Assembly: GCA_905618925.1 (NCBI GenBank)
Contig: CAJQTG010000037.1
Span: 1 to 62,498 of the forward strand
DNA: 62,498 bases
Origin: an uncultured Candidatus Thioglobus sp.
GTDB lineage: Bacteria; Pseudomonadota; Gammaproteobacteria; PS1; Pseudothioglobaceae
Reading direction: 5' to 3'
A model generated the notes under the pieces. It was given only the letters and a program-made list of their open reading frames with translations, did not search any database and was not told the origin of the DNA. The translations under genes and the position numbers were made by a program. Positions 2,215 through 22,068 of this stretch are shown here, piece after piece (the first letter of the stretch is position 1; each line of letters starts with the position of its first letter).

Positions 2215-2409
2215 ATGGCAAGAGGACAAAAGTCATTCAAGCACTCTAATAATGGCCCATCAGTTACTGATGACGAAATTTATATGATGGTAATGCTCTA
2301 TACTTATCAACATAAAAGTATTGATTTTCTAGCTCGGAAATTTAATGTCAGCTCCCCAGTAGCTAAAGAAATTATAATTAGAAGTCGCTTTGGTGGTGCA
2401 TGTGGCTAA
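2215..2409 (+). CDS. Small unknown protein with a helix-turn-helix-like C-terminus
   Basis: A 64-residue protein with no clear family assignment. Residues about 36-56 (FLARKFNVSSPVAKEIII) resemble a helix-turn-helix, but there is too little sequence to be sure it binds DNA. Its last codons overlap the likely GTG start of the downstream MORN gene (stop TAA 2407-2409, GTG 2402), which suggests translational coupling. The real-gene call rests on the ATG, the overlap and the protein-like composition. Confidence 0.6.
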   Translation: MARGQKSFKHSNNGPSVTDDEIYMMVMLYTYQHKSIDFLARKFNVSSPVAKEIIIRSRFGGACG

Positions 2410-3031: not shown

Positions 3032-3091
3032 TTTTTTGTGAATTCTTACTCACTATAATTAGAACATTTACGATAATTTGGAGATGAACTT

Positions 3092-3784
3092 GTGGACTTA
3101 AAAATAATATATTTTGACTTACCTTTTTGGCGCGCTGAAATATCAAGACTACCTTTATTTATTGCAAATATAAAATTTGATGATGTCAGGCCTAGTGGCG
3201 ATGATTGGGATTATGCCAAAAAGAACGGGAAAATGAAAGACGGCATAATAATTCCCTTTCGTGAATTACCTGTTCTTCATATAAATGGTGAAAGTATTGG
3301 GCAAACTATGGCAATTGCAAGAATATGCGGAAAGCTTAGCGGTATGTACCCTGAGGATATTGTTGAGGCAGGCAAGGTAGATCAAATCATTGTTGCAGTA
3401 GAAAATATCAATGCGCTTTTAAGTCCTTCAATGAAAGAAAGTGATATAACGAAAAAGAAGACGATGAGAAAAGAGCTGACCTCTAATGAGCTGCCAACGT
3501 ACTTTGGATATTTGCAAGATATTTTAAGTGCCAACAACTCAGACTGGTTTGTTGGAGACAACATGACTATCGCTGATCTTGCTGTTTGGAGTCTTTTGGG
3601 GTGGATTGCTTCGGGAGTTATTGACGATATCTCAGTAGAAGTTATTCAACGTTTCGAGGGCTTAGTAAAGTTATATAACCAGATCAATGAAAACCCGCGC
3701 GTCAGAGAGTGGAAAATTAAGACCTATGATCATGATAAAGTTAGAGATGATGAGTATAGTTTTGGCATCCCAGATAGCATATAA
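3092..3784 (+). CDS. Glutathione S-transferase family protein
   Basis: A 230-residue protein with the two-domain GST layout. An N-terminal thioredoxin-like half contains a cis-Pro segment (ELPVLHINGESIGQTMAIARI) with the Glu/Ser-type residues that hold the glutathione gamma-glutamyl group. An all-helical C-terminal half follows, with the conserved N-capping motif region (MTIADLAVW, near residue 160). Start is GTG at 3092 behind a GGAG at 3080-3083. Sigma-like GSTs share the LPVL segment and the DLAVW motif. Substrate unknown. It converges with the nitrilase gene 6 bp away. Confidence 0.88.
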   Translation: MDLKIIYFDLPFWRAEISRLPLFIANIKFDDVRPSGDDWDYAKKNGKMKDGIIIPFRELPVLHINGESIGQTMAIARICGKLSGMYPEDIVEAGKVDQIIVAVENINALLSPSMKESDITKKKTMRKELTSNELPTYFGYLQDILSANNSDWFVGDNMTIADLAVWSLLGWIASGVIDDISVEVIQRFEGLVKLYNQINENPRVREWKIKTYDHDKVRDDEYSFGIPDSI

Positions 3785-3790
3785 AGACAG

Positions 3791-4564
3791 CTAATTGAGC
3801 GTTCTTGAATCATCGAGGTAGGGCAGTTTATTTCGCATTGATGAGATTTCATCTGTGTTGATCTCTACCTCGATGACCTTTTCAGTTGTTCCAGCGTTCA
3901 CATCATCAAGACCGTCCGGCCCAATAATTTTGCTCTCACCCATAAAATTTATGCCATTTAAGTTTCCAGTAGAGTTGGCATATATCACAAATATGCCATT
4001 TTCAAATGCCCTAGTTCTGCAATTATAAAGAGCTGCAGCTGGCCAATGAGATGACTGACCCGTTGGAGCGATAATCAATTCAACGCCTTGTAGAGCTAAT
4101 TTACGAATTATCTCTGGAAATTCTAATTCGTAACAAATGACGATTGCAGCTTTAATTCCATTGATAGCGATGATCGAGCTCTCACCCCCTGGTTTAAATA
4201 TCTTTGACTCATCAGCAGTAGGCGGCAACATTTTTTTACGATGGTTTGCAAGAGACATGCCCATGCTATCAAAATACTGGGCAGAATTAAAGAGATTGTC
4301 GTTATCTATTTCAGGATATCCATAAACAATAGCAGTTGAATATTTTTTTGCAAGGAGGCTTATTTTTTTTGCGTACTCTCCGTCACTCTCCTCACAAAAC
4401 TCTTTGATTTTCTCAAAGCTCCCATACCCGGAAAGAAATAGCTCAGGACATACAATTAAATCTAATGCATCATTTTTTTGTAATTGCACCTCTAGTCTTT
4501 CAATCCTCTTTAAAGGAGCTTCATCGCGCATTTTGTATTGAAATATTCCAGCACTAATTTTCAT
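3791..4564 (-). CDS. Carbon-nitrogen hydrolase (nitrilase superfamily amidase)
   Basis: Cytosolic 257-residue amidohydrolase that cleaves a non-peptide C-N bond. The Glu-Lys-Cys triad is intact: Glu41 in CPELFLSGY, Lys110 in HRKKML and Cys144 in ICYELEFPE. The length fits a single-domain aliphatic amidase, omega-amidase or N-carbamoylputrescine amidase-like member; the sequence does not decide among these. Its start overlaps the stop of the small membrane-protein gene upstream by 4 bp (ATGA), so the two form a small operon. Confidence 0.88.
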   Translation of the reverse strand: MKISAGIFQYKMRDEAPLKRIERLEVQLQKNDALDLIVCPELFLSGYGSFEKIKEFCEESDGEYAKKISLLAKKYSTAIVYGYPEIDNDNLFNSAQYFDSMGMSLANHRKKMLPPTADESKIFKPGGESSIIAINGIKAAIVICYELEFPEIIRKLALQGVELIIAPTGQSSHWPAAALYNCRTRAFENGIFVIYANSTGNLNGINFMGESKIIGPDGLDDVNAGTTEKVIEVEINTDEISSMRNKLPYLDDSRTLN

Positions 4565-4821
4565 TTTTTTGATCTCGTTTTACGAATCTTCTTTATCAAA
4601 TTATACGGCTTTATAACAATCCAATATATCCATACAGGTGCAACAACTATATAGAATATATGCCAATAAACGTTATAAAGATCAAACCAGCCAATGATGA
4701 TTTGGTTATTTAGTTTTGAGTATGTGGTCGCAATGAAAAAAGAAAACAATATCCAAAAGATACTGAGGTAAAAACTAATTCTTGTTTTTAATGAGAAACT
4801 TATCATCAGAAATGATTGCAC
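4561..4821 (-). CDS. Small two-helix membrane protein, unknown
   Basis: An 86-residue protein with two hydrophobic segments (about 15-35 and 48-70) and a strongly basic tail (IKKIRKTRSKK), so the C-terminus is probably cytoplasmic. I do not recognise a family. It is the first gene of a two-gene leftward operon with the nitrilase, overlapping it by 4 bp, and it is divergent from the dehydrogenase gene at 4875. An in-frame ATG at codon 6 is an alternative start. Confidence 0.65.
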   Translation of the reverse strand: MQSFLMISFSLKTRISFYLSIFWILFSFFIATTYSKLNNQIIIGWFDLYNVYWHIFYIVVAPVWIYWIVIKPYNLIKKIRKTRSKK

Positions 4822-4874
4822 TATATAACCTTAAGGTAACTATAATTTAATTTGCAAATTTATAGAGACTTTCG

Positions 4875-5882
4875 ATGATAAAAATATTACAAATAAGTGA
4901 GAATGATGCCTGGAATTTAGCATTTAACGCTCTTATTAAAAACCAAACTTCAGAAGATAACGCGAAAGAAGTGGCAGACGCATTAATAAATGCTGAATTT
5001 GATGGTCAAGCTGGTCACGGCCTTTCACGTATCCCATCGTATGTCGAGCAGCTAAATGCTGGAAAAGTAAAGGGTAACGTTGAGCCGTCGCTTCTAAGTT
5101 CTAAAGGAAGTGTAATAAGGGTAGATGCTAATAATGGGTTTGCTTTTCCTGCAATATCGTTAGCAATTAAAGAAATCACTACTACCTGTAAGAATTACGG
5201 TATCGCAGCCGCAAGTGTCTCTAGGTCACATCATTTTGGTCAGGCTGGAAGGCATGTTGAGCGTTTAGCAGAGCAAGGCCTTATTGGATTAATGTTTGGA
5301 AATACTCCTAAAGCGATTCCGCCATGGGGAGGCTCTAAGCCTTTATTTGGAACCAATCCAATTGCTTTTTCTGCGCCAAGAGCTAATGATGCGCCAATGG
5401 TTATTGATATGAGTCTTAGCAAAGTAGCGCGCGGTAAGGTGATGCTTGCAAATCAGCAAAATGAAAAAATTCCCGAAGGCTGGGCTATTGATGCTGAAGG
5501 CAAGCCAACGACTGATCCTAAAAAAGCGCTAGCGGGGGCAATGCTTCCAATTGGAGATGCGAAAGGTAGCGCTTTAGCGCTGATGGTAGAGGTTCTTGCA
5601 GCAGGACTTACTGGCTCTAACTTTGGTTTTGAAGCGAGCTCATTTCTTGATGCTAAGGGCGACTCACCAGGGGTTGGACAGCTAATTATTGCAATTGACC
5701 CTAGTTTTTTTGCAGGAGACACTTTTAGTGAGCGAACTGAAACTATAGTGGGTGCAATTCTTGAGCAGCCATCGACAAGGCTTCCAGGCGATAAGAGGCT
5801 GGAAAAAAGAAAACTTCGTGAAAAATCAGAGAAAATCACAATTTCTAAAGAGTTGTATGAGTCAATTAGTGCACTTACTTAG
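4875..5882 (+). CDS. Malate/L-lactate dehydrogenase family oxidoreductase (LDH2/YiaK type)
   Basis: A 335-residue NAD(P)-dependent 2-hydroxyacid dehydrogenase of the Rossmann-less LDH2/MDH2 family (relatives include ureidoglycolate, sulfolactate and 2,3-diketogulonate-type enzymes). His48 in the QAGHGLSR segment is the conserved catalytic-site histidine. The RSHHFGQAGRHVE segment (about 117-128) and the FGTNPIAF segment are family hallmarks for cofactor binding. Substrate is not predictable; sulfolactate, malate or ureidoglycolate are all seen in the family. Monocistronic in appearance. Confidence 0.88.
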   Translation: MIKILQISENDAWNLAFNALIKNQTSEDNAKEVADALINAEFDGQAGHGLSRIPSYVEQLNAGKVKGNVEPSLLSSKGSVIRVDANNGFAFPAISLAIKEITTTCKNYGIAAASVSRSHHFGQAGRHVERLAEQGLIGLMFGNTPKAIPPWGGSKPLFGTNPIAFSAPRANDAPMVIDMSLSKVARGKVMLANQQNEKIPEGWAIDAEGKPTTDPKKALAGAMLPIGDAKGSALALMVEVLAAGLTGSNFGFEASSFLDAKGDSPGVGQLIIAIDPSFFAGDTFSERTETIVGAILEQPSTRLPGDKRLEKRKLREKSEKITISKELYESISALT

Positions 5883-6049
5883 TGCTTTCTTCTAAAGATT
5901 TGCATTATTTCTTTAAATTATTCAAAAATTCTTTAAAATCAGAAATAAGTACCTAAAAAAGGAATTTTTAAATAAAAAATTAGCAGAGCTAAAAGCCTCT
6001 CAAATTGATCTATAGATAGAAAAGTAAGGAAAAAAACTAGTTCCCTGGT

Positions 6050-6055
6050 TATAAT
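6050..6055 (+). promoter_or_regulatory. -10 box ahead of the inverse-autotransporter gene
   Basis: Perfect TATAAT 32 bp before the ATG at 6088. No good -35 is visible 16-18 bp upstream, so this is a weak or activator-dependent candidate. Confidence 0.4.
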
Positions 6056-6087
6056 CTACTCACAAATTCTTCTTATAAGGCATTCGA

Positions 6088-7011
6088 ATGCAAATATCTA
6101 ATTCAAAAATAACCAATACATTGCTAAGCGCAATTTTTACAATGTCTCTTGGTTTCTCAGTAGGCGCAAGCGCAGATGACTCGGAGCAGATTAAGTCATC
6201 CCTAATGAGTAGAATGACAAGCTCTACTAGCTCTTTTGTCTCGACGGGTATTGGTGCGCTTTTAAGCCCAAACTTTAATACCGTTGAGGTCAGCACCAAC
6301 CTAAAAGAGGGTGACTCTTCAGTTGATATTGGCGTACTTAGAGCTTTTGGTGACAACCCAAACTCATTCATCTTTAACCAGATCAATCTCAATCGTTTTG
6401 ATAATAGGACAACTTTAAACCTTGGTCTTGGTTACCGAATGCTTAATGCCGATGAGACATTGATGGGCGGCGTTAACGCATTTTATGATCACGAGTTCCC
6501 GAACGATCACAAACGTAACGGCGTTGGCTTTGAGCTCATTAGTTCAGCCTTTGAGGCAAGGGTGAACTCATATCACGGCACCACAGGCTACATTAAAGAT
6601 AAGAGCAGCACCAACTCTAAAGCACTTGACGGCAGAGACATGGGCTTCAAGGTTGCGCTTCCTTACCTTCCTGGCATGATGTTTGGCATGAACGCTGTGC
6701 AGTGGAAGGGTATTGATGGCATGAAGGACAAGAAGAGCAGGAAGTACACCCTAGGCGGTTACCTCTCTGATAACGTATCGATTAGCTTTGAGCGTCATGA
6801 CTATAAAAACAAAGCGACTAAAGATAATAACAGCATTAACCTGAACTACACTTGGGGCTTTGGCGCCGAGAACACAAGACCTAAACTATTGGAGTTTGCA
6901 AGCTCGGCTTACGAACTTAAGAAGCTCGGCGATCAGCGCTATGACCTAGTCAAGCGTGAGAATAGAATCGTTAAGAAAAAATCAGGCGTTCTAACAGTGA
7001 GTGGGTACTAA
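6088..7011 (+). CDS. Inverse autotransporter (intimin/invasin-type) beta-barrel without passenger
   Basis: A 307-residue outer-membrane protein. The signal peptide ends near ASA (residue 29). The rest matches the inverse-autotransporter barrel: alternating amphipathic strands, the GGVNAFYDHEF segment (about 133-143) and, near the C-terminus, the family's post-barrel linker motif YDLVKRENRIVKKK. In intimin and invasin this motif leads into the passenger (D00/Ig-like) domains; here the protein stops about 14 residues later. No LysM or Ig domain is present. The next gene starts 1 bp after the stop and encodes an exported protein, so the passenger function may be supplied in trans. G+C looks higher by eye than in most neighbours. 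Confidence 0.85.
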   Translation: MQISNSKITNTLLSAIFTMSLGFSVGASADDSEQIKSSLMSRMTSSTSSFVSTGIGALLSPNFNTVEVSTNLKEGDSSVDIGVLRAFGDNPNSFIFNQINLNRFDNRTTLNLGLGYRMLNADETLMGGVNAFYDHEFPNDHKRNGVGFELISSAFEARVNSYHGTTGYIKDKSSTNSKALDGRDMGFKVALPYLPGMMFGMNAVQWKGIDGMKDKKSRKYTLGGYLSDNVSISFERHDYKNKATKDNNSINLNYTWGFGAENTRPKLLEFASSAYELKKLGDQRYDLVKRENRIVKKKSGVLTVSGY

Positions 7012-7012
7012 T

Positions 7013-8028
7013 ATGAAAACATTAAACGTAAATAAACTAACAATCCTGCTTGGACTCTTTTTAATCTCAGCTTTTTTACAACGAGTGCGAATGCGCTTTG
7101 TACTGTTAACGCAGACGGTGAGATTATTACACCTGCAAGTGCTGCAACCAACAAGGTAACGGACGATACCACCTCATATGATGAAAATGGTAACGTGGAT
7201 TATCAGGCCGGCACTGCAACTAATCACTGTTCGATTACACCTGACACATACAAGATAGTATTTTACAAGGTCGGTGTCTGCACAGCAGATCCTGATCTAA
7301 ACGATTTGTCGAGCTGTGAGATGTTCTTTGAGAGTGCTGCGGGTATTACGGTTGATATCAAAGCAGGCGTCAGCGCTACATTCGACATTCCAGAGTTTAC
7401 AATTACGCCAGGAACCTACCCCTTCCTATATGTTCAGCTTAGCAGTAAACTGGGTATGAAGTGGCAAGGAAGTATGTCTAATAACGTAACTGGGTCGTCT
7501 GGCACAGGCAAATATTGCTGGACTAATAATGCAGGCTTACACTCTGCTGCACCTCAATCAAATCCAGGCGCTGACCCTACTGTAACGGTAGTAACTGCTT
7601 ATGGAACCTCTTTAGCTTACAATGCCGTGACAGTGGACTGCGGTACTCTTGCAGAAGCGAATGCTGGCGTGATATTAAATTATGAGGTAATGACTAGGTT
7701 TAGTGAAGCTTATTGTTCAGCTAATCTAGCGGCTAACGGTGATAAAATGGATATGCAAGACAAAGAGGGTGTAGGGGCTTCACGCGGACAACCAACGATT
7801 AGTCTACTTACCACTGCGGATGTATTTGCTACAACCTGCACAAATTCAGCAAAAATTGCGTGGACAACGACCCTTGATACTGCATATACCATCACTGAAA
7901 ACTCCTCGTTTGAGTTGAGCATTGCGGCAACAGCGGCAAATGAGCTCGCGTTCAGTGGGGGAAATAACTTATCGATTGATAAAGTTGGGTCGGGCCCACC
8001 TAAAATCTCCCTGAACGTTACTGAATAA
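7013..8028 (+). CDS. Cys-rich exported partner protein, reading frame broken near the signal peptide
   Basis: An ATG at 7013 begins a classic signal peptide (MKTLNVNKLTILLGLFLISAF) that then runs into a stop at about 7160. The frame one base away, open to 8028, supplies the natural continuation: FTTSANALCTVNADGE, with a signal-peptidase site after SANA. Adding one T to the T6 run at 7072-7077 restores a single protein of about 338 residues. As written, the only start in the downstream frame is GTG 7195 with no signal peptide. The mature part is rich in Thr, Ser, Ala and paired cysteines and has no domain I recognise. It sits 1 bp after the barrel gene. The shift may be phase variation, a decaying gene or a sequence error. 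Confidence 0.7.
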
Positions 8029-9491: not shown

Positions 9492-10490
9492 ATGGATAAG
9501 AAAACTAGAGATAACGCTGCGATGATGAATGGCCTCTATTGGTGGGGAGTCCCTACACTATTCAGATGTCCTCATAATCCTGAAACGGAAGGCTGCGACA
9601 TTGCACTTGTTGGCGTTCCTCATAGCACTGGAAATGGAACTACTCAGCGCGATCAGCATTTGGGTCCTAGAGCTGTTAGAAATATTTCTGCGCAGGGAAG
9701 GCGTGGACACCTTAAGTTTGGTATTTCTCCTTGGGAGATGTGTGAAATTAGAGATTTTGGTGATGTTCCTCTGCCTGAGGCTAATAATAATGAGAAGTGC
9801 ATAGAGCACATAACCGAGTTTTATGAAATTATTGCTGAGTCTGGCGTTAGGCCGGTTTCAATTGGTGGTGATCATTCGATTACTGGCGGAATCCTTCAAG
9901 CAATTGCAGGTCCAAAGTCCAAACTAACAGGCGGTGAGAAAGCGGTGCTTGTTCATTTTGACGCACATACTGATGCATTTCATCAGCTTGATCATTTTTT
10001 GGGAGCTGTTAAGTCGGCTGCTCATTGGGCAAGTTATTTAGTTAGAGATGGCTTTGTAGATGCATCAAAAAGTATTCAGGTTGGAATCAGGGGAAACACC
10101 AGAACACTGGATTGGCTAAATTCAAGCTATGAGCTGGGCTATGAAATAATTACCAAAGATCAGTATGATGAGTATGGCGTAGAAAAATGTATTGAAATGA
10201 TCCAGGAGCGTGTTGGTGATGCGCCTATTTATATCACCTTTGATTTAGACTGTTTGGACGTCACTGTGGCGCCAGGTGTTTCAAATCTTGAGCCGGCAAT
10301 TGAAGGTTTTAAAATGCCTGACGTGCTTCAAATGCTACAAGGACTTCGCGGTAAGAATGTAATTGGTGGTGATGTAGTTTGCCTCATGCCAACAGTTGAC
10401 TCGCCGAACCAAATTACAGCGCATGTTGCCAACGCAATCATGTTTGAAATAGTTTGTTTGATAGCTGACAATATAGGCAAAAAACCGTAA
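9492..10490 (+). CDS. Ureohydrolase (arginase/agmatinase family)
   Basis: A 332-residue manganese enzyme that hydrolyses a guanidino or related C-N bond, releasing urea or formamide depending on the member. All six metal ligands are visible: His128 (GGDHS), Asp157, His159 and Asp161 (HFDAHTD), and Asp251 and Asp253 (DLDCLD). The loop after the last motif reads TVAPGVSNLEP rather than the agmatinase-typical APGTGTPE, so agmatinase should not be assumed; guanidinobutyrase or guanidinopropionase-like activity is possible. No decarboxylase or putrescine gene is adjacent. Confidence 0.88.
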   Translation: MDKKTRDNAAMMNGLYWWGVPTLFRCPHNPETEGCDIALVGVPHSTGNGTTQRDQHLGPRAVRNISAQGRRGHLKFGISPWEMCEIRDFGDVPLPEANNNEKCIEHITEFYEIIAESGVRPVSIGGDHSITGGILQAIAGPKSKLTGGEKAVLVHFDAHTDAFHQLDHFLGAVKSAAHWASYLVRDGFVDASKSIQVGIRGNTRTLDWLNSSYELGYEIITKDQYDEYGVEKCIEMIQERVGDAPIYITFDLDCLDVTVAPGVSNLEPAIEGFKMPDVLQMLQGLRGKNVIGGDVVCLMPTVDSPNQITAHVANAIMFEIVCLIADNIGKKP

Positions 10491-10513: not shown

Positions 10514-10900
10514 TCAACTCTTGTAATTTTCAAGGTGAATATCTAGCGCCTTAGTTGAGATTAATGTTTCGAGCAGCGCAAAAATTAATGATGCTGACAA
10601 CATCAAAAGCCCAAAGCCAAAAATATAATACGCAAGAGAAATTTGCTCGATATAAAAACAAATAATTGTCATTAGATTAAAAATAAAACTTACAATTCCA
10701 AAGACCTGCATCCTTTTAATATAAGTAACGCGCTTCTTGAGAATATCCAGCTGCTCATCTGTGTGCTTAGTCTTGGACTCATCACTACCCTCTGTTGTCA
10801 TTGCTCTAATAAGGACACTTAGAGAATGAAGGCGATTTGTATAGGCTACAAATAGTAAAGAAATTGCGGGGAAAAGCAGTGCAGGTGTTGTCATATCCAT
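10514..10900 (-). CDS. DUF2721 family membrane protein
   Basis: A 128-residue protein with an N-terminal hydrophobic segment followed by the family pattern VAYTNRLHSLSVLIR, a central charged loop, and two more membrane segments (about 70-90 and 92-115). This layout matches the DUF2721 family of small integral membrane proteins of unknown function. It lies between the ureohydrolase (convergent) and the dioxygenase-kynureninase fusion (same strand, 64 bp), so it could be the last gene of that transcript. Confidence 0.75.
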   Translation of the reverse strand: MDMTTPALLFPAISLLFVAYTNRLHSLSVLIRAMTTEGSDESKTKHTDEQLDILKKRVTYIKRMQVFGIVSFIFNLMTIICFYIEQISLAYYIFGFGLLMLSASLIFALLETLISTKALDIHLENYKS

Positions 10901-10964: not shown

Positions 10965-13268
10965 TTAAAGTTTTGTTGACTTTATAGCGCTTAATAGTTG
11001 GTCAATATCTTCCTCATCATTATAGATGTGAGGGGAAATTCGGATTCCATGGCTTCTAAGATCAACGCTAATACTATGGTCTTTAAGGCTCTGTAATATT
11101 TTTTGTTGGTTGCCCCCAAAGTCCAATATCATGGTGCCTCCCCTAATTGCCTCTTCTCTTGGTGAGACAAATTCTAAATCAAGCGCATTTGCAGTCTTTT
11201 CTATTAAGAGCTGGTTGTGTTTTCTTATGTTTTTTAAACCAATCTTTGTAAAGTAATTGATGCTGTGAGTTGCTATGGCATATGGCGCAATTGAAGGAGT
11301 GCCTCCCCAGAATTTAAGTGCACTATCATGGTAGCAGAAATTATGAATATCAAATTCAAATGGATTCTCATGGCTAAACCATCCTACATCTTTAGGATTG
11401 CAAGTAGCTAGGCAATCTGAGTTGACCCATAAATAAGCAGCCCCAGGACCGCCACATAACCACTTGACACTTGATCCAATCATAAAATCTGGGTTTAATG
11501 CCTTTAAGTCAATCGGCACAATGCCCACGGACTGGGCAATGTCTAAAATAGAAATAATGTTTCTAGATCTTGCCATTGAAAGTATTTTTGAGATTGGCGA
11601 AAGTTGCCCCGTATTTGAGTAAGCATGACTGACAAAAACTAAATCAACATCTGATGTCAGGTATTCGTCCCATACGCCTATATTTGTTATATCAATATTG
11701 GAGGGAATAAATCTAATTTCACAGTCTTCAGGTAATGATTTTTTTAAGGCAAAGCACATTCCTGGAAAGTCAATTTCACTAACCAAGATGATGCAGTTTT
11801 TCTTTTGAGTCTGATCTAAAGACATCAGTATTTTAGTTAATCCACTTGATAAATTAACTTGTGGGCAGAATTCAGATTGCTTTGCATTAAAGAGTTTTGC
11901 TAAGGAGGCTGTAAATTCATTAATAATTTCAAGCCATTGCTCCCAAGGCTCGCTAAGTGAATTTTTCCAAGGAGTGTAAAGTTGTTCAGAAAAGTTTTTT
12001 TCAGAGGTTTTTAATGGCCTTCCAACAGAATGATTAAGGAGATAATTTGCTTTCGTTAAAATAAAATCTTCTTTAAAGCTTGATTTATTTACTTTCCCAC
12101 TAGGTGCCAAGCGTTTTTTGAGGAGCACAATATCATCAAAGCGTGTTCTTATATCACTACGATCAGCAGCAGCTCTTCGATCCCTTAATTTTTCAAGTGA
12201 GTCTAGTAAAACTTTTAAAGGTGGGCCACTAGCTGTAATATTATCAAGTTGAGATTCTTTAAGGTTTGTTGAGGGCTGCGCAATATATTTCTCAACGAGC
12301 TGATTATGGTGCTGAGTTGCTGCATCACCATGCAGCTGACAAATTTCTAGAAACAGAGTGAGATTATTTTTATACCAGTCTTTACTAGAAACTTCAGCAT
12401 TTAGAAAATCATCCATAATACTGGTTCTTCTCATGCAGTCTCTGAGAATACTTTGATCTTCTGGGACCATATATAGAAATTTATCAACCAGCATTTGTGA
12501 ATAAGCCGGCTCATTAGCAAAGCACAGTCCAAGCAAAATATCTATAACATTTATACCAGCAAAATCTCCTGCATTTGCGCCTCGGTAGACCTGAAATCCA
12601 ACGTGATAAGGTTTGTAGTAAGGACGTACACAGTAAAAGAAATCATCAACACTAAGCTTACTAAATAATGCAGCATTCGATTCAATGACTTCCTTTAGCG
12701 CCTCTTTAACGACTAATAATAGTTCTTGACACATCGGATGAGAAATACCCAATGGATGCAACTTAAGTAATGCATCAGCAGCTCTTTTATAGGCAAGAAT
12801 TGCTTTAGTGTTGTAATCAAGAAATAATTTTTCAGCGGGCAGATTTGTAAAGCTTTTATAGACTCCATCAACTGCTTTGTTATGTGTTGAGAGGTGGGCG
12901 GTAGCAAATCGTGGGGTGACACCAATTGAGGCACCAATATTCATAGCAAGTCCTGACGCCTCTTTTAATGGTGAGGTGGATTGTTTTGAAGGGTCCGTGA
13001 TTTCATGTCTTCGACATGCCGCCATATAGAGTCCAACATTACCTAATAAATCGAATGCATTATCAAAGCCTTCATCAGTATTTCCCTCTGATAAAAGTGT
13101 CTTAATTATCTCTTTACCTTCATCTTCGAGAGCTTGCTTTAAATCGTCACCAATAGACTCAACATTAGTGCGTTCACTTTGATTCGAGTAAAGCACCTCA
13201 AGCTCAGAATTTAATTCAACAAAGCGATTTCTAATCCAGAAATCAAAGGTCTGCGAGTTTGGAGTCAT
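10965..13268 (-). CDS. Fusion: PrnB/tryptophan-dioxygenase-like domain plus kynureninase-like PLP domain
   Basis: A 767-residue two-domain protein. Residues about 1-395 resemble the PrnB (monodechloroaminopyrrolnitrin synthase, DUF1864) branch of the tryptophan/indoleamine dioxygenase heme superfamily; landmarks are GNVGLYMAACRRHE, RGANAGDFAGIN and QLHGDAATQHHNQLV. His313 or His320/321 is the candidate heme ligand. Residues about 410-767 are a fold-type I PLP domain most like kynureninase: DIAQSVG, PLP-lysine Lys602 in SSVKWLCGGPG, then FWGGTPSIAP and a C-terminal VDLRSHGIRISP. A tryptophan to (formyl)anthranilate or modified-tryptophan route is inferred. No kynurenine formamidase is in the window. 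A divergent Lrp-type gene lies 151 bp away. Confidence 0.75.
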   Translation of the reverse strand: MTPNSQTFDFWIRNRFVELNSELEVLYSNQSERTNVESIGDDLKQALEDEGKEIIKTLLSEGNTDEGFDNAFDLLGNVGLYMAACRRHEITDPSKQSTSPLKEASGLAMNIGASIGVTPRFATAHLSTHNKAVDGVYKSFTNLPAEKLFLDYNTKAILAYKRAADALLKLHPLGISHPMCQELLLVVKEALKEVIESNAALFSKLSVDDFFYCVRPYYKPYHVGFQVYRGANAGDFAGINVIDILLGLCFANEPAYSQMLVDKFLYMVPEDQSILRDCMRRTSIMDDFLNAEVSSKDWYKNNLTLFLEICQLHGDAATQHHNQLVEKYIAQPSTNLKESQLDNITASGPPLKVLLDSLEKLRDRRAAADRSDIRTRFDDIVLLKKRLAPSGKVNKSSFKEDFILTKANYLLNHSVGRPLKTSEKNFSEQLYTPWKNSLSEPWEQWLEIINEFTASLAKLFNAKQSEFCPQVNLSSGLTKILMSLDQTQKKNCIILVSEIDFPGMCFALKKSLPEDCEIRFIPSNIDITNIGVWDEYLTSDVDLVFVSHAYSNTGQLSPISKILSMARSRNIISILDIAQSVGIVPIDLKALNPDFMIGSSVKWLCGGPGAAYLWVNSDCLATCNPKDVGWFSHENPFEFDIHNFCYHDSALKFWGGTPSIAPYAIATHSINYFTKIGLKNIRKHNQLLIEKTANALDLEFVSPREEAIRGGTMILDFGGNQQKILQSLKDHSISVDLRSHGIRISPHIYNDEEDIDQLLSAIKSTKL

Positions 13269-13360
13269 TTGCTCAGGTTATTTGTATAAAAAAATTATAA
13301 TATCATTATTTATCAAGTTTAAATCACCAAAATTAACTAATAAATAGTATAATAATAGAG

Positions 13361-13396
13361 ATATTCAATAAATAAATACATATTATTATTGAATAT
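13361..13396. promoter_or_regulatory. Perfect inverted repeat, candidate Lrp-type operator
   Basis: Arms ATATTCAATAA (13361-13371) and TTATTGAATAT (13386-13396) are perfect 11-bp inverted copies around a 14-bp centre. They lie in the 151-bp divergent region, 23 bp before the regulator ATG. AT-rich dyads at their own divergent promoter are usual for Lrp/AsnC regulators. The AT-rich background lowers certainty. Confidence 0.55.
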
Positions 13397-13419
13397 AGCT
13401 AATTTATTGGAAATTAATA

Positions 13420-13896
13420 ATGAATACTAATATGGATAATAAGGATTTAAGCATATTGTCTATTCTTCAGAATAGGGGAAGAATAGCTATTTCTGAGTTG
13501 GCTGCAAAATTAAATATGTCAGATACACCTTGCCTTAGGAGGGTTAAAAAACTTGAAGAGGCTGGAGTAATTAGTGGTTATAGTGCAAATATAAGTGCAG
13601 AAGCTATGGGTTTTAATGCAATGGTTTATGTTTTTATAAGGCTCACAGAGAATTCAAATATCAGTGCGGATTTATTTGAAAATGCAATGAAAAAATTGCC
13701 AGAAGTATTAGAGTGCTCCGTTATAACTGGCTCACATGATTATCTTTTAAAGATCATTGCAAACGATTTACTTAGCTATGAAAGTTTTGTTAAAAAATCT
13801 CTAGGAAGTTTGACATGTATTGCCAGTATTGAATCGACGGTAGTATTAAAGCAGACATTTGCTAGAGGAGAACTTCCAATAGAGATAATAAACTAA
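13420..13896 (+). CDS. Lrp/AsnC family transcriptional regulator
   Basis: A 158-residue regulator. An N-terminal winged helix-turn-helix (about 8-55: DLSILSILQNRGRIAISELAAKL, recognition helix SDTPCLRRVKKLEEAG) is followed by a RAM ligand domain (about 70-150; ITGSHDYLLKI). Two in-frame ATGs (13420 and 13432) are possible; the first is used. It is divergent from the dioxygenase-kynureninase fusion. In Pseudomonas the kynurenine genes are controlled by KynR, an Lrp/AsnC member, so a tryptophan- or kynurenine-responsive role is likely by analogy. Confidence 0.92.
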   Translation: MNTNMDNKDLSILSILQNRGRIAISELAAKLNMSDTPCLRRVKKLEEAGVISGYSANISAEAMGFNAMVYVFIRLTENSNISADLFENAMKKLPEVLECSVITGSHDYLLKIIANDLLSYESFVKKSLGSLTCIASIESTVVLKQTFARGELPIEIIN

Positions 13897-15107: not shown

Positions 15108-15887
15108 TTAGCACATATACTTAAGTTTCATTTTTTCAGTATGAACATAGTAATCATAGAGTTTAAGCTCAGACGCTGCCTCTTGATCCAGAACAATGAC
15201 AGCATTCTCATGATTTTGAAGAACGCTTCCAGGGCAAAATGATGATAGAGGGCCTTCGACTAGATCTGCAACGGCTTTGCTTTTATGTTTACCGAGACCT
15301 AATAGAAGAATATTTTGAGCCTCCATTATTGTGCCAATACCCATAGTAATAGCAATTGATGGCTGCACTTCAGAGTCTTTAAAAAAGCGTGAATTATTTG
15401 CAATAGTACTTTTAGTTAACGTTTTCACTCTCGTCCTAGAGCTTAAGCTAGAAGTTGGTTCATTAAAGCCAATATGCCCATTTGAGCCTATACCAAGTAG
15501 TTGAAGATCGATGCCTCCACAACTCTTGATTGATGTTTCATAATTATTACAACTTAATTGATAATCATCGTTAAAGCATTCAGGAATATAAGTATTTTTT
15601 TGGTCAATATCAATATGATTAAATAGTTTTTGTTTCATATAGTAGCGATAGCTTTGAGTGTGGTAACGCTTTAGGCCAACATATTCATCTAAATTAAATG
15701 TAGTAATATTTTGGAAACTTAACGTGCTTTCTTGATGCTTTTTTATTAAGGTTTCGTAAGTTAAAAGAACAGAGCTTCCAGTAGCTAAGCCAAGAACCGC
15801 GTCTTGTTTTTCGCAAATATAGTCTTCGATAAATCCAGCTGCAAAATTACTGGCATCAGCCTCACTTGGAAGAATAACTACTCTCAT
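15108..15887 (-). CDS. nagB: Glucosamine-6-phosphate deaminase
   Basis: Converts glucosamine-6-phosphate to fructose-6-phosphate and ammonia in the cytosol. The 259-residue protein has the phosphate loop GLATGSS (33-39), catalytic Asp67 in FNLDEYVGL, and His138 and Glu143 in SNGHIGFNEP, all expected for NagB. The length is typical of the non-allosteric or bacterial NagB. The ATG overlaps the nagA stop by 4 bp, so the pair is translationally coupled. Confidence 0.95.
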   Translation of the reverse strand: MRVVILPSEADASNFAAGFIEDYICEKQDAVLGLATGSSVLLTYETLIKKHQESTLSFQNITTFNLDEYVGLKRYHTQSYRYYMKQKLFNHIDIDQKNTYIPECFNDDYQLSCNNYETSIKSCGGIDLQLLGIGSNGHIGFNEPTSSLSSRTRVKTLTKSTIANNSRFFKDSEVQPSIAITMGIGTIMEAQNILLLGLGKHKSKAVADLVEGPLSSFCPGSVLQNHENAVIVLDQEAASELKLYDYYVHTEKMKLKYMC

Positions 15888-17032
15888 ATCTCACCTTCTT
15901 TAATTTGTTTGCCAGCAAGCCAGACATTTTGGACCTGAAAGTCTAAATCAAAATGAGCAAGATCAGCTCTGTGACCTGGTTTTATTAACCCAATATAATT
16001 TGATACACCTAAGTATTCTGCTGGGTATAGCGTTGCCATAGCAATTGCACTATCAAGTGGTATATTGCATTTTTGATACGCATTTTTGATAGCATCAATT
16101 TGAGTAATAGACGATCCAGCTAATTTACCTTCTGAGTTAATAATTCGTCCATTAGACTCACTAACCACTTCGTCATAAAGCTCAAAAGAGGGCTCCCCAT
16201 GATTAATGGTTGCCATGGAGTCCGAAACAAAAAATAGTTTTCCTTTTGGCTTTTGTTTGAATGCGGTATAAATTAATGATGGATGAACATGATGCAAATC
16301 AACAATAATACTTGCAGCTGCTTCATCAAAGTAGAAGGCTGAGCCAACAACTCCAGGCTCGCGAGCAGAAATTTGACCCATTGCATTAAAAAGATGAGTA
16401 AAGCCATCTAGTCCATACTTTATTGCCTCTTCGAGTTGGTCAAAGCTTGCATCAGTATGTCCAGCTAAAATTTTAAAGCCAAAAGACTTGAGATTCTTTA
16501 ATTGTTTAATAGAGATACATTCTGGAGCTAAAGTTAACATCACAGGAAAGTTATTCAGGTTTTCAAATAGACTTAAGTAAGATGCATTAATAGTATTAAT
16601 GTATTGCTTTTGATGAACACCGCGGTACTTAACATTAAAGAATGGTCCTTCTATATGGATCCCTAATAGTGATTTGTTATTATGTATTTCTTCAGAGATC
16701 GTAGCAGTGCATTTTTGCAGGACACTTAATGAATCACTAATAACAGTTGGCATAATACTTGTTGTACCAAAATGAAGGTGTGCATCAATGATTGTATTTA
16801 AACTTTCCTTATCTGGTGAATTATTAAATAACTTACCACCACCACCATTAACTTGTATGTCAATAAATCCAGGAGAAAGGATGCCACCCTTTAATTTTTT
16901 TATTTGGTAATCATCAGGGATATTTAATTCATTAACAATATCAACTATGTTTTCATCTTTAATTAATAAAGCACTAGTTTTAAAGAACTCCTTGCCAGAG
17001 AATATTTGAGCCCCTGTAAGTGCTAGCTTCAT
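15884..17032 (-). CDS. nagA: N-acetylglucosamine-6-phosphate deacetylase
   Basis: Metal-dependent amidohydrolase-fold enzyme that removes acetate from GlcNAc-6-phosphate. The 382 residues carry the family set: GFIDIQVNGGGG near residue 56, Glu128 in HIEGPF, His192 in AGHTDA, His213 in THLFNAM and catalytic Asp271 in VSDSMA. Length matches E. coli NagA (382 aa). It overlaps nagR upstream and nagB downstream by 4 bp each. Confidence 0.95.
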   Translation of the reverse strand: MKLALTGAQIFSGKEFFKTSALLIKDENIVDIVNELNIPDDYQIKKLKGGILSPGFIDIQVNGGGGKLFNNSPDKESLNTIIDAHLHFGTTSIMPTVISDSLSVLQKCTATISEEIHNNKSLLGIHIEGPFFNVKYRGVHQKQYINTINASYLSLFENLNNFPVMLTLAPECISIKQLKNLKSFGFKILAGHTDASFDQLEEAIKYGLDGFTHLFNAMGQISAREPGVVGSAFYFDEAAASIIVDLHHVHPSLIYTAFKQKPKGKLFFVSDSMATINHGEPSFELYDEVVSESNGRIINSEGKLAGSSITQIDAIKNAYQKCNIPLDSAIAMATLYPAEYLGVSNYIGLIKPGHRADLAHFDLDFQVQNVWLAGKQIKEGEI

Positions 17033-17781
17033 CCTAGCTCCACAACATAGTCATATCGATCACCACGATAATAGGATTGAGTATATTCCACAACTCTTCC
17101 ATTAGCATCCTTTCCCCTTCGCTCAACAAATAAAACAGCACTGCCAGGGCTAATTTCAAGTTTATCTGCTAAGTTATCATTGGCTATAATTGCGTGAATA
17201 TTTTGTTTTGCAGTAATGGGATTCATTTTTTTTCTTTCAAGTAGCTCGTACAATGAATCATCAATTGCAGATGTTATTGAAATGATTGATGCTGGTATTA
17301 CTGCTATTTCATAGAGCAAAGGCTCATTAACTAAGTATCTCACTCGGTTGAGCCGATGAACCAACTCTTCTTCATTTAAATTCAAAATTAAGGCTTCTTT
17401 TGCGCTCGCTTTCCCTTCCTCTCTAAGAATGATTCTTGAGTAAGATTCAAGACCCCTCTTTTTCATATCTGCAGTAAAACTGTTTAGAGAGGATAGATTT
17501 TTATGTAGAACAAGATCGACACTTTCAGAGACAACAGTCCCTGCACCCTGCCTTTTTTTAAGCATTCCAATACTAACAAGCTGGTCAATTGCTTTACGAA
17601 CAGTAATTCTTGACATGTTTAGTTTAGTGGCTAGTTCTCGCTCTGGCATCAATGCGTCACCAGGCTTCAAAAGTCCCTGTTGTATTGCACTATTAAGAGA
17701 GCGTGATAGTTGTATATATAGAGACTCAGTCCTTTCACTAGAAGGCATCAAGAAATTGATTAGATTGTCAGTATTAGCCAT
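17029..17781 (-). CDS. GntR/HutC-family regulator of amino-sugar genes (NagR/NagQ-like)
   Basis: A 250-residue regulator. The N-terminal winged helix (about 15-80) has the GntR signature: QGLLKPGDALMPERELATKL and MSRITVRKAIDQL. A UTRA effector domain (about 95-245; NRVRYLVNEPLLYE, FVERRGKDANGRVVEY) usually binds a phosphorylated sugar such as GlcN-6-P or GlcNAc-6-P. It is the first gene of the leftward nag operon and divergent from the hexosaminidase/ABC operon, so it probably controls both through the repeats at 17849-17866 and 18084-18101. Confidence 0.92.
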   Translation of the reverse strand: MANTDNLINFLMPSSERTESLYIQLSRSLNSAIQQGLLKPGDALMPERELATKLNMSRITVRKAIDQLVSIGMLKKRQGAGTVVSESVDLVLHKNLSSLNSFTADMKKRGLESYSRIILREEGKASAKEALILNLNEEELVHRLNRVRYLVNEPLLYEIAVIPASIISITSAIDDSLYELLERKKMNPITAKQNIHAIIANDNLADKLEISPGSAVLFVERRGKDANGRVVEYTQSYYRGDRYDYVVELG

Positions 17782-17848
17782 TAAATTAGTTTCAATTTAA
17801 TATAAAAAATAGAGCTTTATGATAAATTAAAAGCCATAATGATTTATA

Positions 17849-17866
17849 TTGGTATGTAATTGGTAC
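17849..17866. promoter_or_regulatory. Operator-like repeat A (nagR side)
   Basis: On the plus strand TTGGTATGTAATTGGTAC, two TTGGTA units 11 bp apart (one helical turn). It begins 2 bp after the minus-strand -10 box and would cover the nagR transcription start. Near copy of site B at the other end of the region. Confidence 0.5.
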
Positions 17867-17867
17867 T

Positions 17868-17897
17868 ATTATATTCTAAATCTATTTATAAAGTCAA
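17868..17897 (-). promoter_or_regulatory. nagR-nagA-nagB promoter
   Basis: On the minus strand TTGACT (17897-17892), an 18-bp spacer and TATAAT (17873-17868), a near-consensus sigma70 promoter pointing into nagR. The start site would fall inside operator-like site A, which suits repression. Confidence 0.65.
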
Positions 17898-18055
17898 CTA
17901 CTATTATAAGTTTATATAAATTAAAGAAATTTATTTAGTTAAGCAGCTGAAGTATTAAAAAAACCATTAGAATCAATGATTATAAGTAAATTACTCAATC
18001 AATCTAGGTCTATCAGCTTGTATTAATAAATCCTATAATTTTTTTTTAATGTTTT

Positions 18056-18085
18056 TTGCTTTTTAATTGATTCCTGTTATATAAT
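18056..18085 (+). promoter_or_regulatory. Hexosaminidase/ABC operon promoter
   Basis: TTGCTT (18056-18061), an 18-bp spacer and TATAAT (18080-18085), pointing to the GH20 gene. Operator-like site B begins at the last bases of the -10 box, mirroring the nagR promoter. Confidence 0.6.
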
Positions 18086-18101
18086 ACCATTTCATAACCA
18101 A
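18084..18101. promoter_or_regulatory. Operator-like repeat B (hexosaminidase side)
   Basis: ATACCATTTCATAACCAA on the plus strand. Read relative to its promoter, it aligns with site A as TACCA-N6/7-ACCAA, with the same 11-bp spacing of CC pairs and the same place after the -10 box. Confidence 0.5.
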
Positions 18102-18183
18102 TTTATATTTTTTAAATCTTTTAAAGTACTGGCAGCATGAAGGCATTATATTTAATTAAAATTTTGCGATGTAGGACCTTAGA

Positions 18184-20184
18184 ATGAGTTCAACTGAGTT
18201 TGTTATTTCAACCTCAATAGATTCAGAGGGATACTTCTGTTCAAAATTGACAAATAATAGTAAACAAAAAATTGACAATTTTTTGTTTTGTTTTAGTGTT
18301 CTATCGCCAATTAAATCAATTGATAATTGTTCTGTTAACAATATTATTGGCGGTTATTCTGAATTATCTCAAATTAACAAATTTGCCCTTCTTCCAGGAG
18401 AGGAGTGGAACTTTAAGTATGGATATGAGTATTCCAGGCACAAGCCCATGAATCATACATGGAGTCCTCAAGGAGGCTTTCTTAAGCTTAAAAATGGAAA
18501 AACTATTAATATTAAAATGATTGATTTAGAATTTGAAACAATCTCCCCCGTGGTATCGGCCCCTTATTTTTCAGTAGATAAGTCTACTAGTAAATCATTA
18601 AGGCTTGTGCCACATCCTCATTTATGGACTCCAAGTACTGGTGTTTGTAACTTAAGTAGGCCGATAAATGTTTTTTTTGAGGATTCAGGCTTAATTTCTA
18701 GTGCATACCAGTCTGCTCTTGAGCTTGGTAAGCGGTTAAATTTTGACTTATTTGCCTCTCCTTCTAAAGAGCCTATTGATGATACAACTTCAATACGACT
18801 TAAATTTCAAAAACAGGCTGAGCCTTCTTCTTATCACATAACTATCACCAGTGATGAAATAGAGGTTATTGCGGGAGATGAAACTGGTTTCTTTTATGGC
18901 CTTATCTCTCTTATGCAGCTTGACCAGATGTATCATAAATTAATTCCATGTGGAACTATTTTTGACAAGCCAAGATTTAATTGGAGGGGCCAGCATTTAG
19001 ATACCGTCAGGCACTTTTATTCGGTTGAAAGCTTGACGAAGTTGTTAGATTTAATGAGCCTCTTCAAGCTTAATAAGTTTCATTGGCATGGGACTGATGA
19101 TGAAGCATTTCGATTCAAGCTAGCTAGCAATCCTGACCTTGCAACTGCAACTTCTAAACGAGGTAGTAATCTTTTAGTGCCACCTTTTTTTGGCTCCGGA
19201 CCGAGTCCAACTGGAGGTTGCTATGATAAGAATGATATCAAGCGAGTTATAGATAGAGCCTCAGCTAATTATATTGAAGTTATGCCTGAGTTTGATTTGC
19301 CTGGACATAATCTTTCATTGATTCAATTTTTACCTGCTATGCGTGATCAAAAAGACACAAGCAATGAAATATCTGTTCAAGGTTATTCTAAAAATACTCT
19401 TAATCCTGCAATACCTCAAACGTTCACACTCGTTGAGCCGTTAATTGATGATTTGTGCGCACTATTTCCTGGTGACTATATCAACTTAGGTGGTGATGAA
19501 GTTCCTCCAGAAAGCTGGACTTTATCTCCTGAGATAGACTCCTTAAAGGAGCAGCATAATTTAAAAAACAACAAAGATATTACTGCATGGTTTATAAATA
19601 AACTTGCATCAAGGGTTGAGCTAAATAATAAGAAAACTGCTGCTTGGCAAGAGGCTGAAGAAGGTCTTCATATGGATAAGAAGCTTGATAAGCTTTTATT
19701 CACATGGAGAGATTTAGAGTCGGGACACAAGCTTGCCCGCCAGGGGAATCGTGTTGTATTATGCCCAGGTGAGCATTTGTATTTTGATATGGCGCAGAGT
19801 AAAGGTTATGGTGATCGAGGAGCCAATTGGGCTGCAATTATAACTTTGGAAGATACAGTTGACTGGGAAATTGTGCCTTCAAATGAACCTGAGCTGGAGA
19901 ACAATATTGAAGGCATACAAGGACATCTTTGGAGTGAGACTATTACTGAAGACAGGCATATGGAAGCAATGCTTTGCCCTAGAATTATTGGTTTATCCGA
20001 AAGCGCTTGGACTTCTGCCAGTAATAAAAGAAAAGGCATTGAACTAAATGCTTTGTCGCATAATAGTTTTAGAGCGTTATTCGAACAAATAGGCTGGGAT
20101 TATCACCGCTCTGAAGATTTCCCAGGCATTTCTGATAATATAAATATTGATGAGGAGGGTTTAGCTAGTGAAGCAGTTCATTGA
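18184..20184 (+). CDS. Beta-N-acetylhexosaminidase, GH20, cytoplasmic
   Basis: Releases terminal N-acetylhexosamine residues from oligosaccharides by substrate-assisted catalysis. The 666 residues have an N-terminal beta domain (to about 270) and a GH20 TIM barrel from about 275 (FNWRGQHLDTVRHF, NKFHWHGTDD), with the catalytic pair Asp438-Glu439 in NLGGDEVP and the barrel Trp in the GHLWSE segment. No signal peptide is visible, so substrate is probably cleaved after import by the adjacent ABC transporter. The stop overlaps the permease start by 17 bp. A perfect 12-bp inverted repeat lies at codons 27-35 (18262-18288). Confidence 0.93.
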   Translation: MSSTEFVISTSIDSEGYFCSKLTNNSKQKIDNFLFCFSVLSPIKSIDNCSVNNIIGGYSELSQINKFALLPGEEWNFKYGYEYSRHKPMNHTWSPQGGFLKLKNGKTINIKMIDLEFETISPVVSAPYFSVDKSTSKSLRLVPHPHLWTPSTGVCNLSRPINVFFEDSGLISSAYQSALELGKRLNFDLFASPSKEPIDDTTSIRLKFQKQAEPSSYHITITSDEIEVIAGDETGFFYGLISLMQLDQMYHKLIPCGTIFDKPRFNWRGQHLDTVRHFYSVESLTKLLDLMSLFKLNKFHWHGTDDEAFRFKLASNPDLATATSKRGSNLLVPPFFGSGPSPTGGCYDKNDIKRVIDRASANYIEVMPEFDLPGHNLSLIQFLPAMRDQKDTSNEISVQGYSKNTLNPAIPQTFTLVEPLIDDLCALFPGDYINLGGDEVPPESWTLSPEIDSLKEQHNLKNNKDITAWFINKLASRVELNNKKTAAWQEAEEGLHMDKKLDKLLFTWRDLESGHKLARQGNRVVLCPGEHLYFDMAQSKGYGDRGANWAAIITLEDTVDWEIVPSNEPELENNIEGIQGHLWSETITEDRHMEAMLCPRIIGLSESAWTSASNKRKGIELNALSHNSFRALFEQIGWDYHRSEDFPGISDNINIDEEGLASEAVH

Positions 20185-21109
20185 ACTATTTAAACCCAAG
20201 ACCAAGTCACAAACAACAACTATGTTTGCTTGGGCTTTGATTGCGCCTGCCGCACTGGTTATGTTTTGGATTGTACTTTGGCCTTTATATGAAACCTTCC
20301 GTCTTTCTTTTACTAATTCGAACCTTGGAACTCTAATGGGCGGTGCTGATTTTGTAGGTTGGGAAAACTATGAAAAAGCTATAGGAGGTCGCAAATTTCC
20401 AGCAATTGTTACTAGAACTTTTTATTGGATGTTCCTTTCAGTTAGTTTTAAAATGATTTTAGGTTTAATCGGCGCAACACTTTTAGCAAGTAATATAAGG
20501 GGGCGCGGTATTATGCGTGCCTTAGTAATGCCACCATGGATTGTGCCAATAGCTATTGGTTGTTTTGGCTGGGTGTGGCTTTATAATGGTCATTTTGGCT
20601 TACTCTCAAACTTTGTAGAGATGGTTGGTATCACGGATGGCCCATTTAGTTTCTTGGCTTATAAGCAGAGTGCTTTTTACTCAGCAGTTGTGACCGATGT
20701 CTGGATTGGAACGCCAATGGTCACTTTGTTCTTTTTAGCGGCAATGCAAGGTGTTCCAAAAGATTTATATGAGGCTGCTTACGTTGATGGCGCATCAAGG
20801 TGGTATCGTTTCAGAAGAATTACCTTGCCACAAATTATGCCTACTATCGTTTCTATGGCTTTACTATCTGCAATCTGGACTTTTAACTCATTTGAGATTA
20901 TTTGGATTTTGACTGAGGGTGGACCTCGTGGTGCAACTACCACACTAATTATTGATACCTTTAAAACAGCAATCTTTAGCTATAAGTTTGGCGCCGGTGC
21001 TACCAGAGCCGTTCTTGTTGTTTTAATACTAGGTGTATTTTCAGTAATATATTTAACTGTATTAGGAAGATTAACCAAAAAATACAACTATGGTGGGGTT
21101 CAGAAATGA
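20168..21109 (+). CDS. CUT1 sugar ABC transporter permease (MalF-like)
   Basis: A 313-residue inner-membrane permease with about six hydrophobic segments and the cytoplasmic EAA loop (EAAYVDGASRWYRFRRITLP, about 199-218) that docks on the ATPase. Start is GTG 20168, inside the end of the GH20 gene. It forms a heterodimer with the next permease (4-bp overlap). By context the substrate is an N-acetylhexosamine oligosaccharide. Confidence 0.92.
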   Translation: MKQFIELFKPKTKSQTTTMFAWALIAPAALVMFWIVLWPLYETFRLSFTNSNLGTLMGGADFVGWENYEKAIGGRKFPAIVTRTFYWMFLSVSFKMILGLIGATLLASNIRGRGIMRALVMPPWIVPIAIGCFGWVWLYNGHFGLLSNFVEMVGITDGPFSFLAYKQSAFYSAVVTDVWIGTPMVTLFFLAAMQGVPKDLYEAAYVDGASRWYRFRRITLPQIMPTIVSMALLSAIWTFNSFEIIWILTEGGPRGATTTLIIDTFKTAIFSYKFGAGATRAVLVVLILGVFSVIYLTVLGRLTKKYNYGGVQK

Positions 21110-21990: not shown

Positions 21991-22006
21991 GAGGTAAAAG
22001 TCTCAC
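21987..22006 (+). repeat. Hairpin at the permease stop codon
   Basis: GTGAGA (21987-21992) and TCTCAC (22001-22006) pair perfectly around an 8-nt loop, overlapping the TGA of the second permease. Confidence 0.5.
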
Positions 22007-22011
22007 ATAGC

Positions 22012-22040: not shown

Positions 22041-22068
22041 TTGATGTAAATATAAAAGGAGAAGTAAA

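Follow-up and report, generated by a model that had tools for sequence, protein, structure and literature searches.

The closest described counterpart of one half of the protein considered here is SO4414 of Shewanella oneidensis, a stand-alone protein represented by PDB entries 1ZEE and 2NWB. Its heme-bound crystal structure was released in 2006, and the title of the 2NWB entry names a putative 2,3-dioxygenase in complex with ferric heme; no reaction assigned to SO4414 was found in the open-licence literature. Less close are PrnB of pyrrolnitrin biosynthesis and the indoleamine and tryptophan 2,3-dioxygenases (IDO and TDO). For the other half, the nearest described proteins share a pyridoxal 5'-phosphate (PLP) enzyme fold: kynureninase (KynU, TIGR01814; PDB code 1QZ9) and the L-cysteine/cystine C-S lyase C-DES (1ELQ, 1N2T). 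We describe here a single intact open reading frame (ORF) that joins both halves. It lies at 10965-13268 on the minus strand of a 62,498-nucleotide stretch of DNA from an uncultured Candidatus Thioglobus sp. (contig CAJQTG010000037.1; this whole stretch is called the window below), and encodes 767 amino acids from an ATG start with no internal stops. The source is a draft genome, 70% complete, whose 41 contigs add up to 1.25 Mb. On balance we favour the reading that the product is a fused two-step enzyme, in which oxidation by a heme domain would be followed by PLP-dependent cleavage of the oxidised amino acid's side chain.

The fused protein and its closest relatives

The two-domain fused ORF is a genuine observation. 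It is no assembly accident, since it is found in eight genomes, two of which (G007 and G008) are single-contig assemblies and 99% complete. Near-identical loci occur in a SUP05 cluster bacterium (L002, 96% identity) and in Candidatus Pseudothioglobus aerophilus (L007, 93%). Purifying selection acts on both halves, with ratios of non-synonymous to synonymous substitution (dN/dS, Nei-Gojobori) of about 0.03-0.09 in three pairwise comparisons; the same Nei-Gojobori script gives 0.2-0.6 for the linker, a figure resting on 13 codons. An earlier note on this DNA, made from the letters alone, had located the ORF correctly, leaving the strand unstated, and the landmarks it quoted are all present: RGANAGDFAGIN from residue 229, QLHGDAATQHHNQLV from residue 311 and DIAQS from residue 576, together with the PLP lysine, Lys602, within SSVKW. 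Its description of a half from the heme dioxygenase superfamily fused to a kynureninase-like PLP half agrees with the Pfam matches, the PDB sequence matches and the fold.

Table 1. Position and basis of the fused ORF, its parts and the adjoining features in the window.
Feature	Coordinates	Strand	Basis or remark
Fused ORF, PrnB/SO4414-like heme-oxygenase domain plus class-V PLP (kynureninase-like) domain, 767 aa	10965..13268	-	ORF, Pfam, fused orthologues
N-terminal domain, residues 1-387 (PF08933; SO4414-like, HDAO/IDO fold)	12108..13268	-	Profile, PDB sequence match, fold
Junction/linker, about residues 388-400	12069..12107	-	Residues 390-395 with pLDDT <50; weaker constraint
C-terminal class-V PLP domain, residues 401-767, Lys602	10968..12068	-	Profiles, PDB sequence match, alignment
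DUF2721 gene after the fusion, same strand	10514..10900	-	Among loci examined, only beside fused copies
Intergenic region between regulator and fusion, putative divergent promoters	13269..13419	.	Inferred
Divergent Lrp/AsnC-type regulator	13420..13896	+	Beside the module in many loci

The N-terminal domain matches the Pfam PrnB family (PF08933) over residues 4-386 with 629.8 bits against a cut-off of 27, covering profile positions 3-386 of 387. Its nearest solved proteins are the two SO4414 entries (616 bits), to which it is 66-68% identical in Foldseek alignments, and the predicted model of the domain (predicted local distance difference test, pLDDT, 83; predicted template modelling score, pTM, 0.84) superimposes on 2NWB with a TM score of 0.95. 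Among the best 50 rows of the fold ranking, 2NWB is followed by PrnB (TMt 0.70-0.75) and then by human IDO1 (TMt 0.58-0.71). PrnB is also the sole match of the domain among PDB sequences besides SO4414; the two share family name and fold, but only 16-19% identity over that fold, and the gene context differs as far as it was scanned. We know of no PLP partner of PrnB. The likeness to IDO and TDO lies in the fold and in weak matches of two of six split N proteins to the IDO profile (E 2.2e-5 and 6.4e-4, below the Pfam cut-off), the other four giving none at E 0.1, whereas the window protein itself has no match to PF03301 (TDO) or PF01231 (IDO) at E 0.01. An hhalign comparison of the N-domain alignment with one canonical TDO (from genome G028) likewise gave no match (E 0.69), a result that says little, being based on a single template.

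Five histidines, H88, H125, H177, H313 and H320, are invariant in all 24 N domains aligned. By its predicted fold, the N-terminal half is a member of the heme-dependent aromatic oxygenase (HDAO; IDO/TDO/PrnB) superfamily. The profile search, which the earlier note had named first among the results that could refute its proposal, does not place this half outside the superfamily. The window protein would itself probably bind heme. A mapping of the carboxylate-binding glycines of PrnB onto the segment RGANAGDF looked suggestive but is not used here, since the offset between the two numberings could not be established.

The C-terminal domain matches Aminotran_5 (PF00266; residues 423-758, 102 bits, above the cut-off) and KYNU_C (PF22580; residues 688-760, 33.4 bits against a cut-off of 27). 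Among PDB sequences kynureninase 1QZ9 ranks first with 80 bits, followed by C-DES with 66 bits. Residues were compared in an alignment of 29 members of the module's PLP clade with eight canonical kynureninases, seven of which exceed the TIGR01814 cut-off; the eighth, L082, is unscored and was counted by its TDO neighbour and its place in the tree. The PLP lysine K602 is invariant in both groups, as are D576, F501, W630 and R738, while T657 is kept in 29/29 clade members and seven of the kynureninases. These likenesses stand beside differences, the first of them at position 413, where His (29/29) faces Asn (8/8). A tree of the 37 rows separates the clade from the kynureninases with support of 100/100. 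The C domain is thus, as far as sequence can tell, a class-V PLP enzyme of a clade of its own and no canonical kynureninase.

A late fusion of a conserved two-gene module

The fusion does not bring together a new pair: at most of the loci found the two proteins are separate neighbours. A scan of genome contigs with six short patterns taken from the window protein's peptide sequence, which recovers close relatives only, yielded 40 loci, of which five are fused (matching five genomes of the family search below), 29 have both pieces as separate neighbouring ORFs, several of them on broken or truncated contigs, and six have the C piece only. As two neighbouring and often overlapping genes, the module occurs in other Gammaproteobacteria, Bacteroidota, Chloroflexota and Actinomycetota. 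In three Shewanella loci (L010-L012; not S. oneidensis) the SO4414-like gene is separate and adjoins the gene for the PLP partner. Of 30 split pairs measured, 19 overlap, nine are separated by gaps of up to about 37 nucleotides and two (L006, L032) lie farther apart; L029 was omitted, the frame of L041 is broken, and for several genes the start is simply that of the longest ORF.

The family search covered 83 genomes, 29 of them within the genus (SUP05/Ca. Pseudothioglobus). The fused ORF is present in eight of the 29 (G000, G005, G007, G008, G019, G026, G031 and G032), another genome of the genus, G015, has the two genes split, and no N domain was found outside the genus among the family genomes searched. 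The last ~34 residues of the fusion alone were matched at G013:C35:1537-1638 (68%) and G030:C1:39831-39929 (73%), in open frames of 41 and 36 amino acids; these may be cut off by contig ends or be what is left of a lost module. The fused rows have a single origin in the trees of both halves (100/100; four fused rows used). The conserved state is a module of two genes, of which the fusion is a late form; the fusion would have arisen once, in Ca. Pseudothioglobus, from the older neighbouring, often overlapping gene pair.

The two partners also travel together where they are not fused. PF08933 exceeds its cut-off in six of 397 sampled genomes of the phylum, the window's own among them; a seventh genome, G558, has only a short fragment below the cut-off. 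In three of the five others the C gene adjoins, and in two (G705 and G808) it is absent beside the N gene. Both of these genomes nevertheless encode a relative of the C clade at another place, with 36 and 38% identity (E 5e-72 and 6e-79). That of G808 was placed in the clade in a wider PLP tree, of which the G705 relative (L099) was not part. Conversely, PF08933 is present in five of the six genomes with C-only loci (L035-L040), in G852 as two pieces; in G854 (L040) the C gene is cut by a contig end and may yet be linked. Set against a background of four PF08933 genomes among 369 of the class, this co-occurrence points strongly to two proteins that work together.

What is new is the fusion and, still more, the conserved association between the SO4414 group and a distinct PLP clade, an association that is uncharacterised as far as we found; no publication on the pair or on SO4414 was recognised in the open-licence literature. 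Fusion and co-occurrence name a partner enzyme for SO4414 and suggest sequential action, making its function directly testable.

Proposed function and alternatives

In the mechanism that we propose, the N domain would act as a histidine-ligated heme oxygenase whose substrate is L-tryptophan or an indolic amino acid close to it. The C domain belongs to the fold-type I, class-V PLP enzymes. Through Lys602 it would form an aldimine with the amino acid once oxidised and break its side chain, by kynureninase-type C-C cleavage or a related reaction, so that a small amino acid and an aromatic product are released. The most likely concrete version would be dioxygenation to N-formylkynurenine followed by cleavage of that compound or of kynurenine. 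The two halves probably act in sequence on tryptophan or a similar amino acid, and a tryptophan-oxidising fusion is plausible; tryptophan as the substrate, the order of the steps, a direct hand-over of the intermediate and the regulation are what we infer.

Several results weigh against this reading. The kynureninase equivalog TIGR01814 scores 97.9 bits on the window protein against a cut-off of 246.4; relatives from Shewanella (97.4), Hufsiella (82.9) and Hellea (51.2) score no higher, figures that may be compared with 334.3 for a true kynureninase of the same genus. Three more positions are swapped throughout the 29 clade members relative to the eight kynureninases: 504 (M/I/V/L/A for Asp), 579 (Gln for His) and 601 (V/I/L for Tyr). 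We take the replaced Asp, His and Tyr to have active-site roles, as known from work on P. fluorescens kynureninase. By fold (Foldseek, full-length model), C-DES with TMt 0.84 stands ahead of 1QZ9 with 0.78. In the wider PLP tree, which includes cysteine desulfurases, the branches are very long and the deeper order is not settled. True kynureninases exceed their cut-off in ten of 38 module genomes, including fused G007, G019 and G032 and split G015, and none of the neighbourhood genes names a substrate. PF08933 was not found in G109, one of the six genomes with C-only loci. Finally, the full-length model (pLDDT 86, pTM 0.54) predicts the domain orientation unreliably.

These comparisons bear on the wording of the earlier note. 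The label 'kynureninase domain' finds no support, the score lying under the equivalog cut-off and the clade being separate from the kynureninases; the note's suspicion that DIAQS signals altered specificity is strengthened by the Gln that is invariant in the clade where kynureninases have His. Cysteine desulfurase models fare no better, SufS giving 88.5 bits against 475.1 and the others also remaining far below their cut-offs. Because the desulfurase branches are so long, the wider tree was set aside and the 37-row split used; drawn with a midpoint root, the wider tree has the kynureninase and desulfurase groups inside the module clade, and two rows labelled 'otherClassV' (L121, L122) fall among the kynureninases. 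To judge from the alignment, the conserved Lys, Asp, Phe, Trp, Thr and Arg would speak for an alpha-amino acid substrate bound much as in kynureninase; the replacement of Asp, His and Tyr would suggest that the ring substituent or the reaction is a different one.

The strongest alternative to a gain of function concerns the joining itself: a stop may simply have been lost between neighbouring genes, with no functional gain and no channelling. The linker is short and variable and, within the genus, G015 still has the two genes apart, as an incidental event would lead one to expect, but the fusion has one origin on the rows used, is kept in eight genomes and is conserved in both halves. We regard an incidental fusion as a serious contender, while leaning somewhat against it.

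The next alternative is the ordinary kynurenine route, in which the N domain would make N-formylkynurenine, an unlinked formamidase would convert this to kynurenine, and the C domain, as a divergent kynureninase, would yield anthranilate and alanine. The genomes were surveyed accordingly for TDO, IDO, kynureninase and, as formamidase family, PF04199 (KynB-type); the 38 module genomes include three with only the C gene at the locus (L035, L037, L038) and exclude that of L009. TDO exceeds its cut-off in none of the 38, compared with 31 of 369 genomes of the class, and IDO does so in one of 46 genomes, so that the module could supply the first step. Chance would give zero of 38 about 4% of the time if genomes were independent, which related genomes are not, and the absence is only weak evidence because TDO is found in just 31/369 of the class in any case. 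G015, 99% complete, has adjoining PF04199 and kynureninase genes, a split module and no TDO or IDO. This gene set fits the module as supplier of the tryptophan-opening step; in the same genome, the module's C protein is not needed as a kynureninase. The route is made doubtful by the swaps near the active site in every clade member, by the restriction of PF04199 to 13 of the 38 genomes, fused, 99%-complete G007 and G008 not among them, and by the true kynureninases already present. G007 and G008 have no TDO or IDO match either. Since true kynureninases occur in fused G007, G019 and G032, the C domain is not just the kynureninase of those genomes; from their presence in three of the eight fused genomes it follows that the fused pair probably has another task or provides a shortcut. 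An Anaerolineales metagenome-assembled genome, G103, with IDO beside a true kynureninase as well as the module, likewise argues for a distinct role of the latter. We consider the ordinary route unlikely.

Some loci of these surveys deserve record. In L073 (G015:C73, 2746-4843) the PF04199 cyclase and kynureninase genes overlap, and L075 (G015:C38, 3148-4152, at a contig end) contains a second Lrp gene and the start of a second PF08933 gene; this second copy could be a strain mixture. TDO exceeds its cut-off in one of the 29 genomes of the genus. At L082 (G028:C7:30000-41000, 872-7215), in a genome of the genus, genes for a CN-hydrolase, kynureninase and TDO stand in a row and look like an ordinary tryptophan cluster, with a protein bearing a flavin mononucleotide (FMN) oxidoreductase domain encoded nearby; the nitrilase-family protein may serve as formamidase there. 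A CN-hydrolase gene adjoins the true kynureninase at six of 11 genus loci (L052, L054, L055, L056, L058 and L061). At L077 (4600-5439) and L079 (5225-6058) an alpha/beta hydrolase with a BD-FAE match lies directly upstream of the true kynureninase, and is a candidate formamidase of another type.

PrnB-type or other HDAO chemistry would have the N domain rearrange or mono-oxygenate tryptophan, as PrnB, MarE and the heme tryptophan hydroxylases do, and the C domain process the product to a new metabolite. Such enzymes take the superfamily beyond dioxygenation (PMC11791213, PMC11904535, PMC12921851), and the last two of these papers also portray it as chemically diverse. For this reason the first product is left open in the mechanism that we favour. 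PrnB is the only PDB sequence match after SO4414, and the C domain is altered and coexists with true kynureninases in some genomes, but PrnB is no more than 16-19% identical over the fold and the 20 window ORFs scanned contain no Pfam match to a halogenase, prn genes having been searched no further than these. We hold this chemistry to be improbable.

Within the favoured two-step reading, a formamidase-free route can be put forward only tentatively, and we think it rather doubtful. Once the heme domain had opened the ring of the indole, the PLP domain, with four of its positions re-tuned, would act directly on the formylated or otherwise oxidised intermediate, passed on inside one chain, and its cleavage would yield alanine together with N-formylanthranilate or a new aromatic product. 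An intermediate cleaved without formamidase would make for a shorter tryptophan pathway; such a two-enzyme tryptophan branch would be housed in one protein in marine SUP05-related bacteria, alongside a normal kynureninase in some.

Least convincing is a non-indolic substrate, a tyrosine-, histidine- or sulfur-related amino acid that would be oxidised and then split by a lyase nearer C-DES: the C-domain fold is closer to C-DES, with which, at 21% identity (Foldseek), it shares an Asp..Gln-Ser motif, Gln 579 being as in the aligned C-DES and Thermococcus cysteine desulfurase sequences, and tyrosine-acting HDAO enzymes are known (PMC11904535), but kynureninase outscores C-DES by sequence, KYNU_C is recognised and the N domain is nearest, after SO4414, to tryptophan-binding PrnB and IDO, so that we deem this quite improbable.

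Regulator and gene neighbourhood

A divergent Lrp/AsnC gene accompanies the module at 28 of 49 loci, four of which duplicate places already in the count, and its relatives at other loci are 41-98% identical to the window copy. KynR of Pseudomonas is a kynurenine-responsive regulator of the Lrp type. The window's regulator probably controls the module; the intergenic region contains AT-rich inverted repeats only and no convincing operator site. The DUF2721 gene begins 64 nucleotides past the fusion and follows all eight fused copies, its product being a possible membrane partner.

An arginase-family gene (9492-10490, plus strand; 172.9 bits, below the agmatinase cut-off of 302) also lies beside all eight fused copies, and its product is 94-99% conserved across the fused genomes, exceeding the fusion itself; at other loci there is only a 31% match (L030). 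It was considered as an unorthodox formamidase and rejected: it is on the opposite strand, is not on the contig of the G015 split pair, and its Ilumatobacter match is 31%. A CN-hydrolase of the nitrilase family (3791-4564), only 25-30% identical to two kynureninase-adjoining copies, was also rejected in this role and is kept as a lead.

DUF1864, the earlier note's name for the N-terminal domain, is named among the domains in the domain-distribution section of a coral paper (PMC6214176), so animals or their symbionts may carry the family. Elsewhere in the window, a 307-amino-acid ORF (6088-7011, plus strand) consists almost wholly of an inverse-autotransporter beta-domain (residues 30-292) without a passenger. 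Genes at 15108-23274 match glucosamine isomerase-like and NagA-like amidohydrolase proteins, a GntR/UTRA regulator, GH20 and a binding-protein transporter, a group that looks, from these matches, like a cluster for the uptake and breakdown of amino sugars.

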